NCBI GenBank assembly: GCA_019694975.1
Contig: JAIBAY010000004.1
Span: forward strand, 186,001-250,000
Direction: 5' to 3'
Length of the DNA stretch: 64,000 bases
DNA from: Chitinophagales bacterium
GTDB taxonomy: Bacteria > Bacteroidota > Bacteroidia > Chitinophagales > UBA10324
A program made the position numbers and the translations under genes. The notes under the pieces are model-generated. The model did not search any database, had not been told where the DNA came from, and saw only the letters and a list, made by a program, of their open reading frames with translations. Below are positions 17,234 to 23,963 of this stretch, in pieces. Each line of letters starts with the position of its first letter. The first letter of the stretch is position 1.

Positions 17234-17455
17234 ATGGAAATAAGAACCGACATATTTCCTGGCGACAGCAAGGAGCAGCTCAAAAAGCTTCCGGACAATT
17301 CAATTGATTTAATTGTTACTTCTCCTTCATATGCAGACCAGCGTAAGAGTACATACGGAGGCATCCATCACGACAAGTACGTTGAATGGTTTCTTCCAAT
17401 TTCTGAGCAGTTACTTCGGGTTCTCAAACCGACAGGAACTTTCGCAAGTTCTTAA
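17234..17455 (+). pseudogene. N-terminal remnant of an N6/N4 DNA methyltransferase
   Basis: The first 69 codons read as the start of an alpha/beta-type N6-adenine or N4-cytosine DNA methyltransferase: FPGDSKEQLKKLPDNSIDLIVTSPSYADQR carries a strand before motif IV and the catalytic TSPSY (a form of DPPY/TSPPY), then ISEQLLRVLKPTGTF, the usual strand after motif IV. Right after GTF the similarity stops and the frame ends at TAA 17453-17455. The target-recognition region and the SAM-binding motif I are missing (intact enzymes are about 280 residues or more). The following bases instead continue into restriction-endonuclease sequence in the next frame, so an internal deletion joined the two genes. 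Confidence 0.8.
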
Positions 17456-17944
17456 GCGCAATTAGTGGAAAGGTTTATGGCGGGAGAAAATCAGGCATCA
17501 CAGGTATTGATTTAGAGGTTGACATCAAAGGAGTTCGTTATCATTACAATTAAATCTGGTCCAAATTGGGGCAACAGTTCGCAGGTTGCCAGAATGATTT
17601 CTGAGTTCAAGACAGCGAAAAAAACGTTGCGAACCAGTAACTCAAAGCTTAACATTACGGCAGTGAACGGTTGTTGTTACGGTAAAGACAATAACCCTGA
17701 CAAGGGAGAATATTTCAAATATTGCGGACAAAGGTTTTGGGAGTTTATTTCCGGCAACAACGCACTTTACACAGAAATCATTGAACCACTTGGACACAAA
17801 GCCAAAGAAAGGAACGATGAATTTATGCGCTCGTATTCACAGATGATAAACAAGTTCACAAAGGAATTTGCTAACGATTATTGCGACAATGATGGAAATA
17901 TCAATTGGAAAAAATTTGTTGAGTTCAACTCCTCTGCAAGGTAA
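17440..17944 (+). pseudogene. C-terminal remnant of a PD-(D/E)xK type II restriction endonuclease, frameshifted
   Basis: From about 17440 the frame codes for LSAISGKVYGGRKSG and then GIDLEVDIKGVRYH; it ends at TAA 17551-17553. A second frame picks up at once with IKSGPNWGNSSQ and runs to 17944 (including KFTKEFANDY). Together GIDLE...IKSG matches a PD-(D/E)xK catalytic core split by a one-base shift near 17543-17549. KSGPNWGNSSQ recalls PmeII-type endonucleases, but that label is from memory. The N-terminal part is deleted and the coding is fused, out of frame, to the methyltransferase start. Not expected to make an active enzyme. Confidence 0.7.
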
Positions 17945-18159: not shown

Positions 18160-18633
18160 TCACCGGCCCTTCAAAATTTCAGCGCTGCGGTTGAAGCTCT
18201 CTTCCAGCGATATCAGTGTTTCCGTCCGTTCTATTCCTTTTATTTTTTGCAGCTGATCATGCAATACATATTTCAGGTGATCCATATCACGGCAGACAAT
18301 TTCAGCAAACATGCTGTAGTTGCCGGTAGTATAGTTCAGCCGCACTATTTCAGGCAGCTTATTCAACTCTTTGGCAACGGAATCATACATCGAACTTTTC
18401 TCCAGGTATACACCAATGAAGGCAATAACATCGTACCCTACTTTTTTAAGGTTGATATGATAGCGCGAACCGGTAATCACGCCCTGCCGCTGCAGCTTTT
18501 TCATGCGCACATGAATGGTGCCGCCTGATACATATAACTTCTTGCCAAGCTCTTTGTAGGAGACAGATGCATTGCGCATCATCTCCGATATAATCTGCAG
18601 GTCCAATTTGTCAAAATTCAATTTAGTCGCCAT
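18160..18633 (-). CDS. Lrp/AsnC-family transcriptional regulator
   Basis: A 157-residue Lrp/AsnC regulator. The N-terminal winged helix-turn-helix is LDLQIISEMMRNASVSYKELGKKLYVSGGTIHVRMKKL (about 9-47, shown in parts across the HTH), and the C-terminal RAM ligand-binding domain includes VIAFIGVYLEK, VRLNYTTGNYSMFAEIVC with the Gly-rich turn. Such proteins sense amino acids or related small molecules as octamers. ATG 18633. A 14-bp perfect inverted repeat lies 20-84 bp upstream, a likely site for autoregulation. Confidence 0.9.
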   Translation of the reverse strand: MATKLNFDKLDLQIISEMMRNASVSYKELGKKLYVSGGTIHVRMKKLQRQGVITGSRYHINLKKVGYDVIAFIGVYLEKSSMYDSVAKELNKLPEIVRLNYTTGNYSMFAEIVCRDMDHLKYVLHDQLQKIKGIERTETLISLEESFNRSAEILKGR

Positions 18634-18652
18634 CGCAACATGTGTTTTTAGA

Positions 18653-18717
18653 TAATTTCAAAATTAGACGAATAAAATTTGATAAAATCGAAATAATCAA
18701 AAATAATTTTGAAATTA
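18653..18717. promoter_or_regulatory. 14-bp inverted repeat upstream of the Lrp/AsnC gene, candidate operator
   Basis: TAATTTCAAAATTA at 18653-18666 is the exact reverse complement of TAATTTTGAAATTA at 18704-18717, with 37 bp of A/T-rich DNA between. Each arm is itself near-palindromic. Lrp/AsnC octamers wrap DNA over several phased A/T-rich sites, so this region, 20-84 bp upstream of the regulator's start, is a good autoregulatory candidate. Confidence 0.5.
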
Positions 18718-18754
18718 GTTCAAACACTTTATCACCGGGCTTACTTTTATGCCG

Positions 18755-19013
18755 GTTCTTTGAATCATTAATTGTTTGGGGGTATATGGCAAGTGGCGGG
18801 AAGTGCCTTCATGGTGAAAATTTGCCGGAACACATTTCTCCAATTGTTGTTCCGGCAGCGATGAATTGGATTATGGTGGCTAATACATTCAATTCAGCAC
18901 TTTCTGTCACTTGCCTTTACATGCTAACGTAACAGTTCGCAGCAGTGGGATACAATCCGCTGTTGCAGCAAAAAGCCGCAACACCATTGTAAGTGTTGTG
19001 GCTTTTTGTTTTT
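18755..19013 (+). ncRNA. candidate orphan structured RNA ending in an intrinsic terminator
   Basis: The plus strand contains nested and adjacent complementary segments: GGCAAGTG (18788-18795) with CACTTGCC (18908-18915); GGAAGTGC (18799-18806) with GCACTTTC (18897-18904, one G-U); a 10-bp hairpin TGCCGGAACA/TGTTCCGGCA (18823-18832 with 18848-18857); a 7-bp hairpin TGAATTG/CAATTCA (18862-18868 with 18890-18896) that abuts the second helix; a 10-bp hairpin 18940-18949 with 18956-18965 (three G-U); and a strong terminator 18970-19013. A TACTTTTA -7-like sequence lies at 18742-18749. The overlapping 96-codon reading frame looks non-coding. No plus-strand gene follows, so a riboswitch is unlikely. 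I recognise no known RNA family; both ends are approximate. Confidence 0.55.
18970..19013 (+). terminator. strong rho-independent terminator (possibly bidirectional)
   Basis: AAAAAGCCGCAACAC (18970-18984) pairs with GTGTTGTGGCTTTTT (18993-19007): 15 bp with one G-U, an 8-nt loop, then TTTTGTTTTTT-like sequence. The A-run on the 5' side makes it usable from both strands. No protein gene ends just upstream, which is why it points to a non-coding transcript. Confidence 0.75.
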
Positions 19014-19120
19014 TACCGCTGATAGTTTTTATAAGACTACCTGCTGCACTATTTAGGGAAATTCCTTTTACTATGCATGCTCATCATATGAAGCTTCGCT
19101 TACATTTTTTCATTGACACC

Positions 19121-19267: not shown

Positions 19268-21328
19268 TTACCAGATCCGGACCCTCAGGCTGTCAGGACG
19301 GTACATTTTATCGCCCGGTTGAATGTTAAAGGCCGTATAGAATTCATCAATGTTTACCGGAGGACCGTTAACACGCAGAAAGTTGGGTGCATGCACATCT
19401 GTTTTCACACGCACCGCCATGGCTTCATCGCGCACCTGCCCGTACCAGGAAAGCGCGAAGCCGATAAAGTAACGCTGCAGCGGCGTGAAGCCGCCGATTT
19501 TTTCACCTTTCTGATATTGTTCTGTTTTCTTAAATGCATCGAGCCCCAGCAACATACCGCCCAGGTCAGCGATGTTTTCACCTTGCGTGGCATCACCGTT
19601 GATGTGCAGGCTGTCCAGCACTACGTAATCATTGAATTGCTTCACGATCATTCCGGTTCGTTCTAAAAACTTTGATCGGTCTTCTTTTGTCCACCATTCC
19701 ACCAGGTTTCCTTTGTCATCAAACTGACTGCCTTCATCATCAAAACCATGAGTGATTTCGTGCCCGATGGTGGAACCTGCCGCATAGCCATACATGATGG
19801 CATCATCTACACAGGAGTCTGCCATGCCGGGAACAATAAAGGCAGCAGCCGGCAACACAATTTCATTATTGGATGGATTGTAGTAGGCATTCCATGTTTG
19901 TGGCGTCATGTCCCATTCGGTACGGTCAACAGGTTTACCGAGCTTGGAAATTTCATAGTCATTGAACCACTTCGTTGCGCGCATCACATTTTCGGCGAAG
20001 GAACTCTTGTCAATAGTGAGCGTGGAATAATCTCTCCACTTATCAGGATAACCGACCTTTTTCATGACCGTTCCTAACTTCTGCAGTGCCTTTTGCTTGG
20101 TGGTTTCGCTCATCCAGTCGAGCTTGCCGATACGTTCACGGTAGGCATCGATCACATTATCCACCATCTTATCATAGCGGGCTTTCACTTTGGGGGAATA
20201 ATATCGCTCAACATACAACTGACCAAGCATGAAGCCCATCAGGTTTTCTTCTTCATCCAATACGCGTTTCCATCGCGGACGCTGCTCTTTTGTTCCATTC
20301 AGTACCGTACCATAGAAACTGAAATTCTGCTGATCAAACGGTTTGCTCAGCTTGTCGGCATACGTATTAATCAGGTTCCAGCGCAAGTAGGTTTTCCAGT
20401 TATCTATACTTTCTTTTTTCACGAGTTCTTCGGCACGTTTGAAAAATTCAGGCTGTCCGACAATAACGGAATCAATGGATGCAATGCCGCTTTTCGCCAA
20501 CAGGCTGTTCCAATTAATGGAAGGTGTCATTTTGTTGAGGCCTGTCAGGGCCATCTTATTGTAATTTTCATAAGGATCACGAAGTGCGGCCAGCTTGCGC
20601 GATTGCTCTGCCAGTGACGTTTCCATGCGCATGATGGTAGCTGCATTTGCTTTGGCAGTTGTTGAGTCTTCGCCCAGCAGTACCAACATTTTTGTAATGT
20701 GTTTCAGATACTCAGTCCTTATGTTTTTCGTGCGGCTGTCGTTATCGAAGTAATAATCGCGGTCGGGCAATCCTAGTCCTCCCTGCGACAGGTGAAGGAA
20801 CATTTTTTCGCTGTTCATTTCATCCTGGTAAATATATCCGTCAAACAGTGCGGCAACGCCGATGGATTGCAGCTGGCCGATTTCATCCAATACGGCATTC
20901 ATGTCTGTGAGCGCGCTGATGGCGGCAAGTTGTGCCGACAATGGCTGCAGCCCCTGTTGTTCGATGGCAGCGGTATCCATTCCCGTGCGCCAGAAGTCGC
21001 CGATCTTTTGCCAGTTGGTGCCGTCAGCCGCCTTCATCGCCGCCGCTTCTTCATTAATGCTTTTCATGCGCCCGTAATTTTCTTCATTCACTTTACTCCA
21101 GATGCCCCACGATTTTTCAGATGCAGGCACAGGATTGTTTTTCACCCATTTCCCCATAGAGAAAAGAAAGAAATCGTCCTGGGGCCGCACGGTGGTATCA
21201 ATGTATGCATTCAGAAAAGTGTCGAGGTTGCATCCGCCACCGGCTGCTGTTTTGGGCTGCTGATTACAGGAAGAGTGCATGAAAACGATCATGCTGAAAA
21301 ATAAAATGGAAGGAAAATGCTTGTTCAT
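19268..21328 (-). CDS. M13-family (neprilysin/PepO-like) zinc metallopeptidase lipoprotein
   Basis: A 686-residue secreted endopeptidase. ATG 21328 opens a lipoprotein signal (hydrophobic stretch ending HSSCNQQ), so it is probably anchored by the Cys in the envelope; upstream codons in the same frame are not needed. The M13 N-terminal domain includes DDFFLFSMGKWVKNNPVPAS. The catalytic domain has NAYYNPSNNEIVLPAA, the zinc motif GHEITHGFDDEGSQFD (HExxH) and ENIADLGG, whose Glu is the third zinc ligand. Length matches the family. It is separated from the helicase gene by 85 bp on the same strand. Confidence 0.95.
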   Translation of the reverse strand: MNKHFPSILFFSMIVFMHSSCNQQPKTAAGGGCNLDTFLNAYIDTTVRPQDDFFLFSMGKWVKNNPVPASEKSWGIWSKVNEENYGRMKSINEEAAAMKAADGTNWQKIGDFWRTGMDTAAIEQQGLQPLSAQLAAISALTDMNAVLDEIGQLQSIGVAALFDGYIYQDEMNSEKMFLHLSQGGLGLPDRDYYFDNDSRTKNIRTEYLKHITKMLVLLGEDSTTAKANAATIMRMETSLAEQSRKLAALRDPYENYNKMALTGLNKMTPSINWNSLLAKSGIASIDSVIVGQPEFFKRAEELVKKESIDNWKTYLRWNLINTYADKLSKPFDQQNFSFYGTVLNGTKEQRPRWKRVLDEEENLMGFMLGQLYVERYYSPKVKARYDKMVDNVIDAYRERIGKLDWMSETTKQKALQKLGTVMKKVGYPDKWRDYSTLTIDKSSFAENVMRATKWFNDYEISKLGKPVDRTEWDMTPQTWNAYYNPSNNEIVLPAAAFIVPGMADSCVDDAIMYGYAAGSTIGHEITHGFDDEGSQFDDKGNLVEWWTKEDRSKFLERTGMIVKQFNDYVVLDSLHINGDATQGENIADLGGMLLGLDAFKKTEQYQKGEKIGGFTPLQRYFIGFALSWYGQVRDEAMAVRVKTDVHAPNFLRVNGPPVNIDEFYTAFNIQPGDKMYRPDSLRVRIW

Positions 21329-21413
21329 GTAAATAATTTTTTGTGTTGAGAATTTATTACCGGATCGCGGCACCATGATGCCTGTAAGATCGTAAGATTT
21401 ATACAAACCTGCA

Positions 21414-23963
21414 TCAACTGCCGTCAAGGCTTTCTTTACCGGCAGCAACGGCTGCTGCCCTGTTCATATCGGCTATCACAAAACGTATTGCTGCATAGCT
21501 CACTTCACCACCCAACAATTGCCTGACGGTTGACAGGCCGGGCTCCGGTGCATTTTGCAATGCTTCCCGGATGCGTTCCATTTTTTCTGGCGATATCAGC
21601 TGCGAAACTTCCAGTTCTCCGGCCTCCACAAAATAGGCCAGGTGCGCTTCAATGGTGCTGGCGGCAAGGCCGCGCAGGCTTGCAATTTCAGCAATACTTT
21701 TTCCGGATTGGAAGAGTTGAAAGCTTTGCAGCTGTGTGCTGTTTGCTGCTGTTTTTGCAGGAAGGTCACCTGTCTTATGCAGGCTGCCCGCTCTCACTTT
21801 TCTTGTTTTTTTCATCTCTTCCGCCTTCAGATGAATACTGCTTTTCAGCTGATTGGTTTCAGCGAAAATTTTTACGATTTGCAGAAAGGTTTCACCATAG
21901 TTATGCAATGTAAAATCTCCCATGCCCCTGATCATTGCCATTTCGGTAATTGTTTGTGGCAGGTATTTCACCATCTCTTTGAGCGTGGCATCATTGCATA
22001 TACGGAAAGGAGGAAGATTCGCAGTTTGAGCCAGTGCTGTACGGCAGGTTTTCAGTTGCCGCATCAAATCGCCTTCCTGTTCATCGCCGGAGCTTTCAAT
22101 TTCGGTACCGGTAACATTGCGTTGGAAAGCAGGCATCGCCCTTCGGCTCTCTTTGTAGCGGTATCGGAGTGCAAAATTGCTGCAGAAGCCGATCAGTTCA
22201 TCCATCTGCAGCAGCACCTTTCTCACTTTTTTCATCTGTTGAAGTGAGATAAGCAGGTTATCGAGCGGCGCTATTACTTTTTCGTCCATCGCCGTTCCGA
22301 AATAAGCCTTGCCTTTCGCCACTCTTTCCTGCAGCTGTTCTGCAATATTGCCGGAGAGGCTTTCCGCCGCAATCCCTTTTACCTGCGCCTGAAATCGTTG
22401 CGCTACATCGTGCATGGTTAATATAGCATCATGAACCGCATGTAAACCGGCGATGATCTTTTCTTTATCTTCCAGCTTACGCAAACCCATGTATTGGATG
22501 AAGTCGGTTATCTTCTCTGACAGCGGCTGCAGGTTGAACAGCTCGAGCAAGGTTTTTACCGCGTAAATTTCTTTTTCTGCAGTCAATGAATTTTTCAATT
22601 GTTGAATATCCGGCTGTTGCATCATGTAGGCAACAATGGCTTCATCCGTCTTTATTACTTCACGGCGGATGGGGGAACGAAGCACCAGTCCTTCCAGCGA
22701 CACGCAGCGGCTGAGAGCAACATATACCTGGCCGGCGGCGAAGGCGGCGCCAGCATCAATAACGGCACGCTGAAAGGTTAGTCCCTGGCTTTTATGTATC
22801 GTGACTGCCCAGGCAAGGCGCACCGGATACTGTGTGAATGAGCCAAGCTCCTGTTCTTCCAGCTTGTTTTCCTGCTCTTTAAAAATGTACCGGATATTGC
22901 GCCATGTTTCTTGCTGCACCTTAATCGTTTCCCCGGATTCAGGGAAGTGTACGCTGATGCATTCCGTTTCACCATCCCTTTCTATTCCTTCCAGCACTCC
23001 GATTTTTCCATTGAAGTATTTTTTCTCCTTCACATCATTTTTGATGAACATGATCTGTGCGCCCTTCTTGAGCACCAGCGACTGTTCAACAGGGAAAACC
23101 CGCTCGGGAAATTCGCCGGTCAGTGTTGCTTTCACGGTAAATTCTTTTCCCGGAAGCTTTCGTAACCCGCTGCTGTTGATCTCATCCGCTTTGTAGTTAT
23201 GCGTGGTAAGGGTGATGAAATGATCTTTTGGATCAGGGTTAAAGCCAGGCTGATACCGTTGATGCAACTGCTGCAGGTCCTCATCCGACACTTCATTGTT
23301 GCGCACCCTGTTGAGCAGGTGGATGAAGGCTTCATCACTTTGACGGTACACTTTATCCAGCTCAATGCATAACGGGCCGGCCTGTTTGATTACCTGCGCC
23401 GAAAAGAAGAATGGCGTCTCATAATAATCTCTCAGCAAGAGCCAGTCCTGCTCAGTGGCAACCGGTGGCAGCTGATAGAGGTCGCCGATGAAGAGCACCT
23501 GCACGCCGCCAAAGGCTTCATATTGATTTTTGCGCACATGGCGAAGCAGTATGTCCATAGCATCCAGCCAGTCGCAGCGCAACATGCTGACTTCATCAAT
23601 CACCAGCAGCTCAAGATGGCGAAGGAGTTCAGTTTTTTCAGCCGTGTAACGAAGGTTGCGGAGCAGGTGATGCTTATCGGTAACCTGTTGTTGCGATTGA
23701 AATGATCCGCGGAATAATCCAGGGAGGAAGCAACCCATGGGCAACTGGAAAAAAGAATGCATCGTAACACCGCCTGCATTGATCGCCGCCACGCCGGTTG
23801 GCGCGATCACCGCCATTCTCTTTCCGCATTTTTCTTTGATATGCTTCAGGAAGGTGGTCTTGCCGGTGCCTGCTTTACCGGTAAGAAAAATGTGCTGGCC
23901 CGTGTGCTGAATAAAATCAGCAGTAATGGAAAATTGATTGGGAAAATCTGTTTCGGAAGTCAT
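21414..23963 (-). CDS. PIF1-like DNA helicase with C-terminal HRDC and helix-turn-helix domains
   Basis: An 849-residue superfamily 1B helicase. Walker A is LTGKAGTGKTTFLKHI (about 27-42), Walker B LLVIDEVSML, followed by VQVLFIGDLYQLPPV and, near 400, the UvrD-C-like TIHKSQGLTF motif. After a linker, an HRDC-type domain (about 635-705, including MAMIRGMGDFTLHNYGE) and a final helix-turn-helix region (FQSGKSIAEIASLRGLAASTIEAHL) follow. The last two modules are typical of RecQ C-termini, so this is a PIF1 motor with a RecQ-like tail, a combination common in Bacteroidota. It probably acts on G-quadruplex or branched DNA. Confidence 0.9.
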   Translation of the reverse strand: MTSETDFPNQFSITADFIQHTGQHIFLTGKAGTGKTTFLKHIKEKCGKRMAVIAPTGVAAINAGGVTMHSFFQLPMGCFLPGLFRGSFQSQQQVTDKHHLLRNLRYTAEKTELLRHLELLVIDEVSMLRCDWLDAMDILLRHVRKNQYEAFGGVQVLFIGDLYQLPPVATEQDWLLLRDYYETPFFFSAQVIKQAGPLCIELDKVYRQSDEAFIHLLNRVRNNEVSDEDLQQLHQRYQPGFNPDPKDHFITLTTHNYKADEINSSGLRKLPGKEFTVKATLTGEFPERVFPVEQSLVLKKGAQIMFIKNDVKEKKYFNGKIGVLEGIERDGETECISVHFPESGETIKVQQETWRNIRYIFKEQENKLEEQELGSFTQYPVRLAWAVTIHKSQGLTFQRAVIDAGAAFAAGQVYVALSRCVSLEGLVLRSPIRREVIKTDEAIVAYMMQQPDIQQLKNSLTAEKEIYAVKTLLELFNLQPLSEKITDFIQYMGLRKLEDKEKIIAGLHAVHDAILTMHDVAQRFQAQVKGIAAESLSGNIAEQLQERVAKGKAYFGTAMDEKVIAPLDNLLISLQQMKKVRKVLLQMDELIGFCSNFALRYRYKESRRAMPAFQRNVTGTEIESSGDEQEGDLMRQLKTCRTALAQTANLPPFRICNDATLKEMVKYLPQTITEMAMIRGMGDFTLHNYGETFLQIVKIFAETNQLKSSIHLKAEEMKKTRKVRAGSLHKTGDLPAKTAANSTQLQSFQLFQSGKSIAEIASLRGLAASTIEAHLAYFVEAGELEVSQLISPEKMERIREALQNAPEPGLSTVRQLLGGEVSYAAIRFVIADMNRAAAVAAGKESLDGS

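Follow-up and report, generated by a model that had tools for sequence, protein, structure and literature searches.

The locus and its control region

The window analysed here is a 64,000-nucleotide stretch of a contig from a Chitinophagales bacterium (assembly GCA_019694975.1, contig JAIBAY010000004.1, positions 186,001 to 250,000), and all coordinates without a prefix refer to it. At 18160-18633 on the minus strand it carries a gene for a regulator of the Lrp/AsnC family (Pfam AsnC_trans_reg, 2.8e-17, together with HTH_24), and at 19268-21448, likewise on the minus strand, a gene for an M13 peptidase. Between the two, read from the plus strand, lies the structured RNA that is the subject of this study, divergent from the regulator gene and convergent with the peptidase gene on its right. 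Beyond the regulator gene, the plus strand holds two partial restriction-modification genes, apparently broken remnants: at 17234-17455 the beginning of a methylase for N6/N4 positions of DNA, covering 50 of 221 profile positions, and at 17519-17944 an EcoO109I-like endonuclease reduced to its C-terminal half.

The interval separating the divergent units contains a 21-bp inverted repeat (arms at 18646-18666 and 18704-18724), a placement that would suit the operator of an Lrp-family regulator acting divergently and makes it a candidate binding site for the neighbouring protein. The sequence around this repeat aligns with the leaders of the tRNA-like genes described below. A putative promoter of the Bacteroidota type spans 18719-18749 on the plus strand, with a TTCA resembling a -33 element and the -7 element TACTTTTA at 18742-18749, which aligns with TATCTTTG of the ortholog found in a second genome, G009. 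Promoters of this phylum have the -7 consensus TAnnTTTG, to which TACTTTTA is an imperfect fit. The leader contains the boxA-like element GTTCTTTGA (18755-18763, plus strand), which may serve in antitermination and which is common to the window, the G009 ortholog and many tRNA-like leaders.

Fold of the RNA and its terminator

Minimum free energy folding places the body of the RNA at 18770-18937 on the plus strand. Its core is a rod formed by the 19-bp closing helix P3 (5′ strand 18788-18806, 3′ strand 18897-18915), which leads into a three-way junction bearing hairpin 1 (18822-18858, in which 18822-18834 pairs with 18845-18858 over 11+2 bp) and hairpin 2 (18862-18896, in which 18862-18874 pairs with 18883-18896 over 10+3 bp). 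The outer helices P1 (18770-18778 with 18928-18937) and P2 (18781-18785 with 18921-18925), both weaker than P3, lengthen the rod, and hairpin 3 (18939-18966), with a 10-bp stem, and an intrinsic terminator with an 18-bp stem and a T-run (18967-19014, evident in both sequence and fold) follow on the same strand. The helices, two hairpins, third hairpin and terminator named in a first-pass annotation made from the sequence alone are all where it had put them, and hairpin 2 does abut the closing helix (18862-18896 against 18897-18915); the two nested helices that it had described are present, but they belong to a single uninterrupted helix of 19 bp, of which each forms one end.

The folding check that the annotation had proposed yields a minimum free energy of -113.1 kcal/mol against -68.5 ± 5.0 in dinucleotide shuffles (z = -8.95), and the core without the terminator still reaches z = -6.65 against its shuffles. 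The minus strand of the same region folds more weakly, at -79.5 as opposed to -113.1 on the plus strand. The fold is a real structure, far outside chance.

The first-pass annotation had also argued that the terminator calls for an RNA gene, and in one respect the argument stands: neither the open reading frames nor domain searches revealed a plausible plus-strand gene 3′ of the RNA. The terminator is, however, nearly palindromic (A-run/T-run), bidirectional in sequence, and situated between convergent units, so that the minus-strand M13 peptidase gene might use it as well, and the argument is weak by itself; a terminator alone is no proof of an RNA gene. The same palindrome and convergent gene speak for an alternative with no functional RNA here at all, only a decaying leader, a bidirectional terminator of the peptidase gene and an accidentally strong fold, and the restriction of homologs to two genomes points in the same direction. 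This reading must nevertheless contend with the two z values just given and with a closing helix that is intact through 11 substitutions (see below), and we regard it as improbable.

A plus-strand open reading frame of 96 amino acids (18642-18932) raises the alternative of a small protein gene. It starts 9 bases from the start of the Lrp gene and runs across the promoter and the helices, and its interior is not conserved in G009; the candidate was rejected, and the likelihood that it is a gene is negligible.

Searches against known RNA families

Rfam 15, which includes tmRNA, SRP RNA, RNase P RNA and riboswitches, gave no match at gathering score anywhere in the window and only chance-level matches at permissive thresholds in the region of the RNA, in agreement with the initial impression that it belongs to no standard family. 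A tRNA or tmRNA identity was rejected, a dedicated search of the window having found none. A riboswitch or other cis-regulatory leader is unlikely because no plausible plus-strand gene lies downstream, and a mobile or dispersed repeat was rejected because the region is single copy in its 4.3-Mb genome.

A long rod of about 170-180 nt, in a genome in which no 6S RNA has been recognised elsewhere, might suggest a diverged copy of that regulator of RNA polymerase. However, the 6S models RF00013 and RF01685 find no match in the entire 4.3-Mb genome at E values up to 10, and the core is a three-way junction, where a 6S RNA would have a terminal stem and an open bubble at its centre, so that the 6S candidate was rejected and is very unlikely to be correct.

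An ortholog in a second genus

Similarity searches did little to place the RNA among its relatives. At the DNA level, 100 relatives returned short chance matches only, and R1, a single-sequence covariance model of the window RNA, was run on 199 genomes, on the 80 Lrp loci and on the remaining genomes of the family without yielding a convincing relative; its two weak matches outside the family had E values of 0.07 and 0.2. Orthologs of the Lrp/AsnC gene, on the other hand, mark out a conserved locus, and synteny led to G009, which represents a second genus of the family and is the sole other family genome in which the Lrp gene has an ortholog (77% identity). The two loci align from the beginning of the Lrp gene, across the leader and into the 5′ strand of P3, with a score of 87; shuffles score 24 ± 3.7 with a maximum of 41 in 500. 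The G009 RNA, assigned by synteny and leader alignment to L033:1235-1365 on the minus strand, likewise adopts a closing helix with two hairpins, with a folding z of -4.4; since the rod itself is quasi-palindromic, it is the leader homology that settles the sense strand. BLAST with the G009 RNA gave only short, chance-like matches elsewhere, and the sequence of the window RNA is known from two genomes only.

The comparison of the two RNAs provides the homolog with compensatory changes that the first-pass annotation had called for, in the form of one ortholog at the same locus. Of the closing helix, 14 pairs can be aligned, and every one is intact in both genomes despite 11 substitutions: four pairs have changed on both sides, three carry single compatible changes and none is broken. 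When 11 substitutions were placed at random, every pair stayed intact in 4 of 200,000 trials (about 2e-5). This compensation, from one comparison and one helix, is the main evidence for selection on the RNA structure; the hairpins show no sequence conservation between the window and G009.

Overall, the window RNA is probably a noncoding RNA gene of roughly 170-245 nt, predicted from its sequence and modelled fold to be transcribed, and we hold this reading with moderate to good confidence. The first-pass annotation had proposed a noncoding RNA of about 250 nt, an interpretation to which the fold and the compensated ortholog lend partial support, with the length revised as given. The imperfect -7 element, the unconserved hairpin sequences and the limitation to two genomes were counted against an RNA gene.

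A giant tRNA-like RNA in the same slot elsewhere

Where relatives possess an ortholog of the Lrp gene, another RNA, strongly conserved, occupies this divergent slot; it is described in the present analysis by the model R2 and the alignments A2 and A3. It is a cloverleaf resembling tRNA-Leu, 111-198 nt long, with a giant structured variable arm: an acceptor-like stem of 8 bp ends in ACAGC, the D arm is of the Leu type (GATGAAA..GGCAGACAT), the very long variable arm contains the conserved internal motifs GGGATAAA and GCTAAC, and the T arm reads GGTTCGAATCC. In the anticodon-like arm, the anticodon position is occupied by an invariant GTC (GUC in the RNA; 85 of 85 copies), and the preceding base, which is U33 in tRNAs, is T in 69 of 85. 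This incomplete retention of U33 argues against ordinary decoding.

The helices are backed by an alignment of 85 copies, 80 of them distinct, which was fitted to the model, so that its counts lean towards it: 99.4% of pair cells are paired, 16 of 29 pairs show changes on both sides, and 239 cells are doubly changed where shuffles give 51 ± 8, while all slid controls collapse. A model-free alignment of 16 copies recovers the same helices and shows double changes in 13 pairs. Both Rfam and ARAGORN miss this RNA, and no published giant tRNA-like RNA in Bacteroidota was found in the open-licence literature.

The tRNA-like RNA sits in the slot at 80 of 80 Chitinophagales loci with an Lrp ortholog (for example in Chitinophaga, Niastella and Flavihumibacter), and R2 has matches in numerous families of this order, where the copies frequently stand in tandem. 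Examples are L034:2091-2254 (plus strand), L137:3681-3826 (minus strand) and three tandem copies at L042:2147-2745 (plus strand). Of 297 genomes drawn from across the phylum, 30 have matches, among them members of other families in the class and of one family placed elsewhere in the phylum. The RNA is also found in the Lrp-divergent slot in other orders, and at 34 of the 46 loci retrieved with R2 the fetched flanking sequence includes the Lrp gene. The description of the window RNA as an orphan is therefore apt insofar as its sequence comes from two genomes, but the slot is ancient and is normally held by the giant tRNA-like RNA.

Some variation within the class deserves mention. In the anticodon-like loops of L037, L040 and L047, some copies have C or G ahead of GUC, and GUC is followed by a pyrimidine or G, which likewise argues against ordinary decoding. 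Some copies, as in L172 and L159, carry an additional insert within the D loop or the variable arm and reach up to about 213 nt, which shows that the cloverleaf tolerates large inserts. In another family, L038 and L045 have 5′ of the Lrp ortholog, in the same divergent position, a short hairpin with a conserved loop (GCTGT..GATGAGGAGC..GCAGC) followed by a T-run; this hairpin may be a third kind of element occupying the slot.

Descent or replacement

The window RNA is not itself a member of the tRNA-like class. In the genome that it comes from, R2 detects ordinary tRNAs only, the best being tRNA-Leu genes, and in 16 of 16 genomes of the family all R2 scores fall in the range of ordinary tRNAs, meaning that the tRNA-like RNA is absent from this family. 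Against the window region R2 gives no match with default filters and at best 8 bits with filters off, in a match that pairs only the two strands of hairpin 1; against the G009 RNA there is no match even with filters off. By inspection and by R2, the T-arm motif TTCGA and the acceptor end ACAGC are absent from the window RNA. Membership was rejected on the failure of R2 and the lack of a D arm, an anticodon arm and a T arm.

What the window RNA does have in common with the class is the position divergent from an Lrp/AsnC gene and a homologous leader. Aligned with the tRNA-like leaders, the window leader reaches a best score of 71 and a median of 46, compared with a maximum of 51 and a median of at most 30 for shuffled sequences; among 44 of these leaders, GTTCTT occurs exactly in 21 and TAnnTTTG in 29. 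A Bacteroidota-type promoter, and often a GTTCTT element, precedes both kinds of RNA. Judged by alignment, the control regions of the two RNAs are homologous, but their bodies are not demonstrably related.

Two histories can be envisioned. In one, the window RNA would descend by remodelling from the tRNA-like RNA: the tRNA body would have disappeared, while the structured variable arm, including the three-way junction and two hairpins at its distal end, would have been retained and enlarged. The slot, orientation, leader and boxA-like element are the same, the Chitinophagaceae variable arm likewise ends in a closing stem and two hairpins, and AATTGTT at the start of the window RNA, as well as AACAG, resemble the acceptor ends of the tRNA-like RNA. 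Yet three-way junctions are common, R2 misses both the window and the G009 RNAs with filters off, and local similarity to the tRNA-like RNAs is no better than in shuffles (18 against 19.9 for the window RNA, 24 against 19.9 ± 2.1 for the G009 RNA). The resemblance of the G009 stretch GGGAGCACAGGATGAAT to the tRNA-like variable arm is not significant, 4 of 60 shuffles doing equally well. Descent from this Bacteroidota-wide, Lrp-linked class with loss of the tRNA body is thus a tentative proposal that we think rather doubtful.

In the other history, an unrelated RNA would have been captured behind the inherited Lrp-divergent promoter after loss of the tRNA-like RNA. The bodies are without sequence or covariance similarity, and the tRNA-like RNA is missing from all 16 family genomes, but there is no known source for a captured RNA, which is single copy and is not found elsewhere in the family. 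Such a replacement is quite conceivable, if short of an even chance. Both histories stay under consideration, since neither model nor sequence connects the bodies and the architecture that they share is a common one, and on the evidence in hand replacement is slightly ahead of remodelled descent. They are sub-cases of a single explanation and differ on the origin of the RNA, not on its status as an RNA gene.

Proposed model and significance

That explanation, which we consider likely, is that a noncoding RNA is encoded here by a gene of its own, in an inherited Lrp-linked unit whose RNA body has been remodelled or exchanged. A promoter divergent from the Lrp/AsnC gene would drive a short leader with the boxA-like GTTCTTT, followed by the rod-helix RNA with its three-way junction and two hairpins and closed by the intrinsic terminator. 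In most Chitinophagales the same unit of Lrp gene, operator, promoter and leader appears to encode the giant tRNA-Leu-like RNA, and in the window's family the body would have been remodelled beyond recognition or exchanged, with position and control region kept. The Lrp-family protein may control the RNA from the shared operator according to amino-acid or nutritional state. Since no gene follows the window RNA and its fold is rigid, we infer that it acts in trans, perhaps through contacts with a protein, the translation machinery or the ribosome, and not by antisense pairing.

As a new orphan structured RNA, the window RNA is of moderate interest in itself; its locus, though, exposes a larger, uncatalogued class of RNA beside an Lrp-family regulator across a large part of the Bacteroidota. 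If confirmed, that class would be a tRNA-derived RNA with a probably non-translational role, testable in culturable Chitinophaga, and lineages in which it has been lost or replaced, such as the window's, would be natural experiments on its essential part. Were the window RNA a descendant, the function would reside in the structured variable arm and not in the cloverleaf or the GUC "anticodon".

Comparison with known systems

The tRNA-like RNA resembles the class II tRNAs (tRNA-Leu and tRNA-Ser) and tRNA-Sec in its Leu-type D loop, its T loop TTCGAAT and its long variable arm, but its variable arm is several-fold longer, its GUC is invariant and its U33 is not universal; the window RNA has none of these tRNA features. 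The irregular, allo-tRNA-like tRNAs reviewed in PMC7609411, many of which are reported to have an 8/4 acceptor domain, are like it in being tandem, irregular, tRNA-derived genes of unclear use, and the descriptions consulted mention no giant variable arm beside an Lrp gene. The 6S RNAs of RF00013 and RF01685 share size and rod shape with the window RNA, which differs from them by its three-way junction in place of the 6S central bubble and matches neither model. From the giant tRNA-like RNA the window RNA is set apart by the lack of D, anticodon and T arms and of an R2 match, yet the two have in common their slot, their control region, their boxA-like leader and their terminator.
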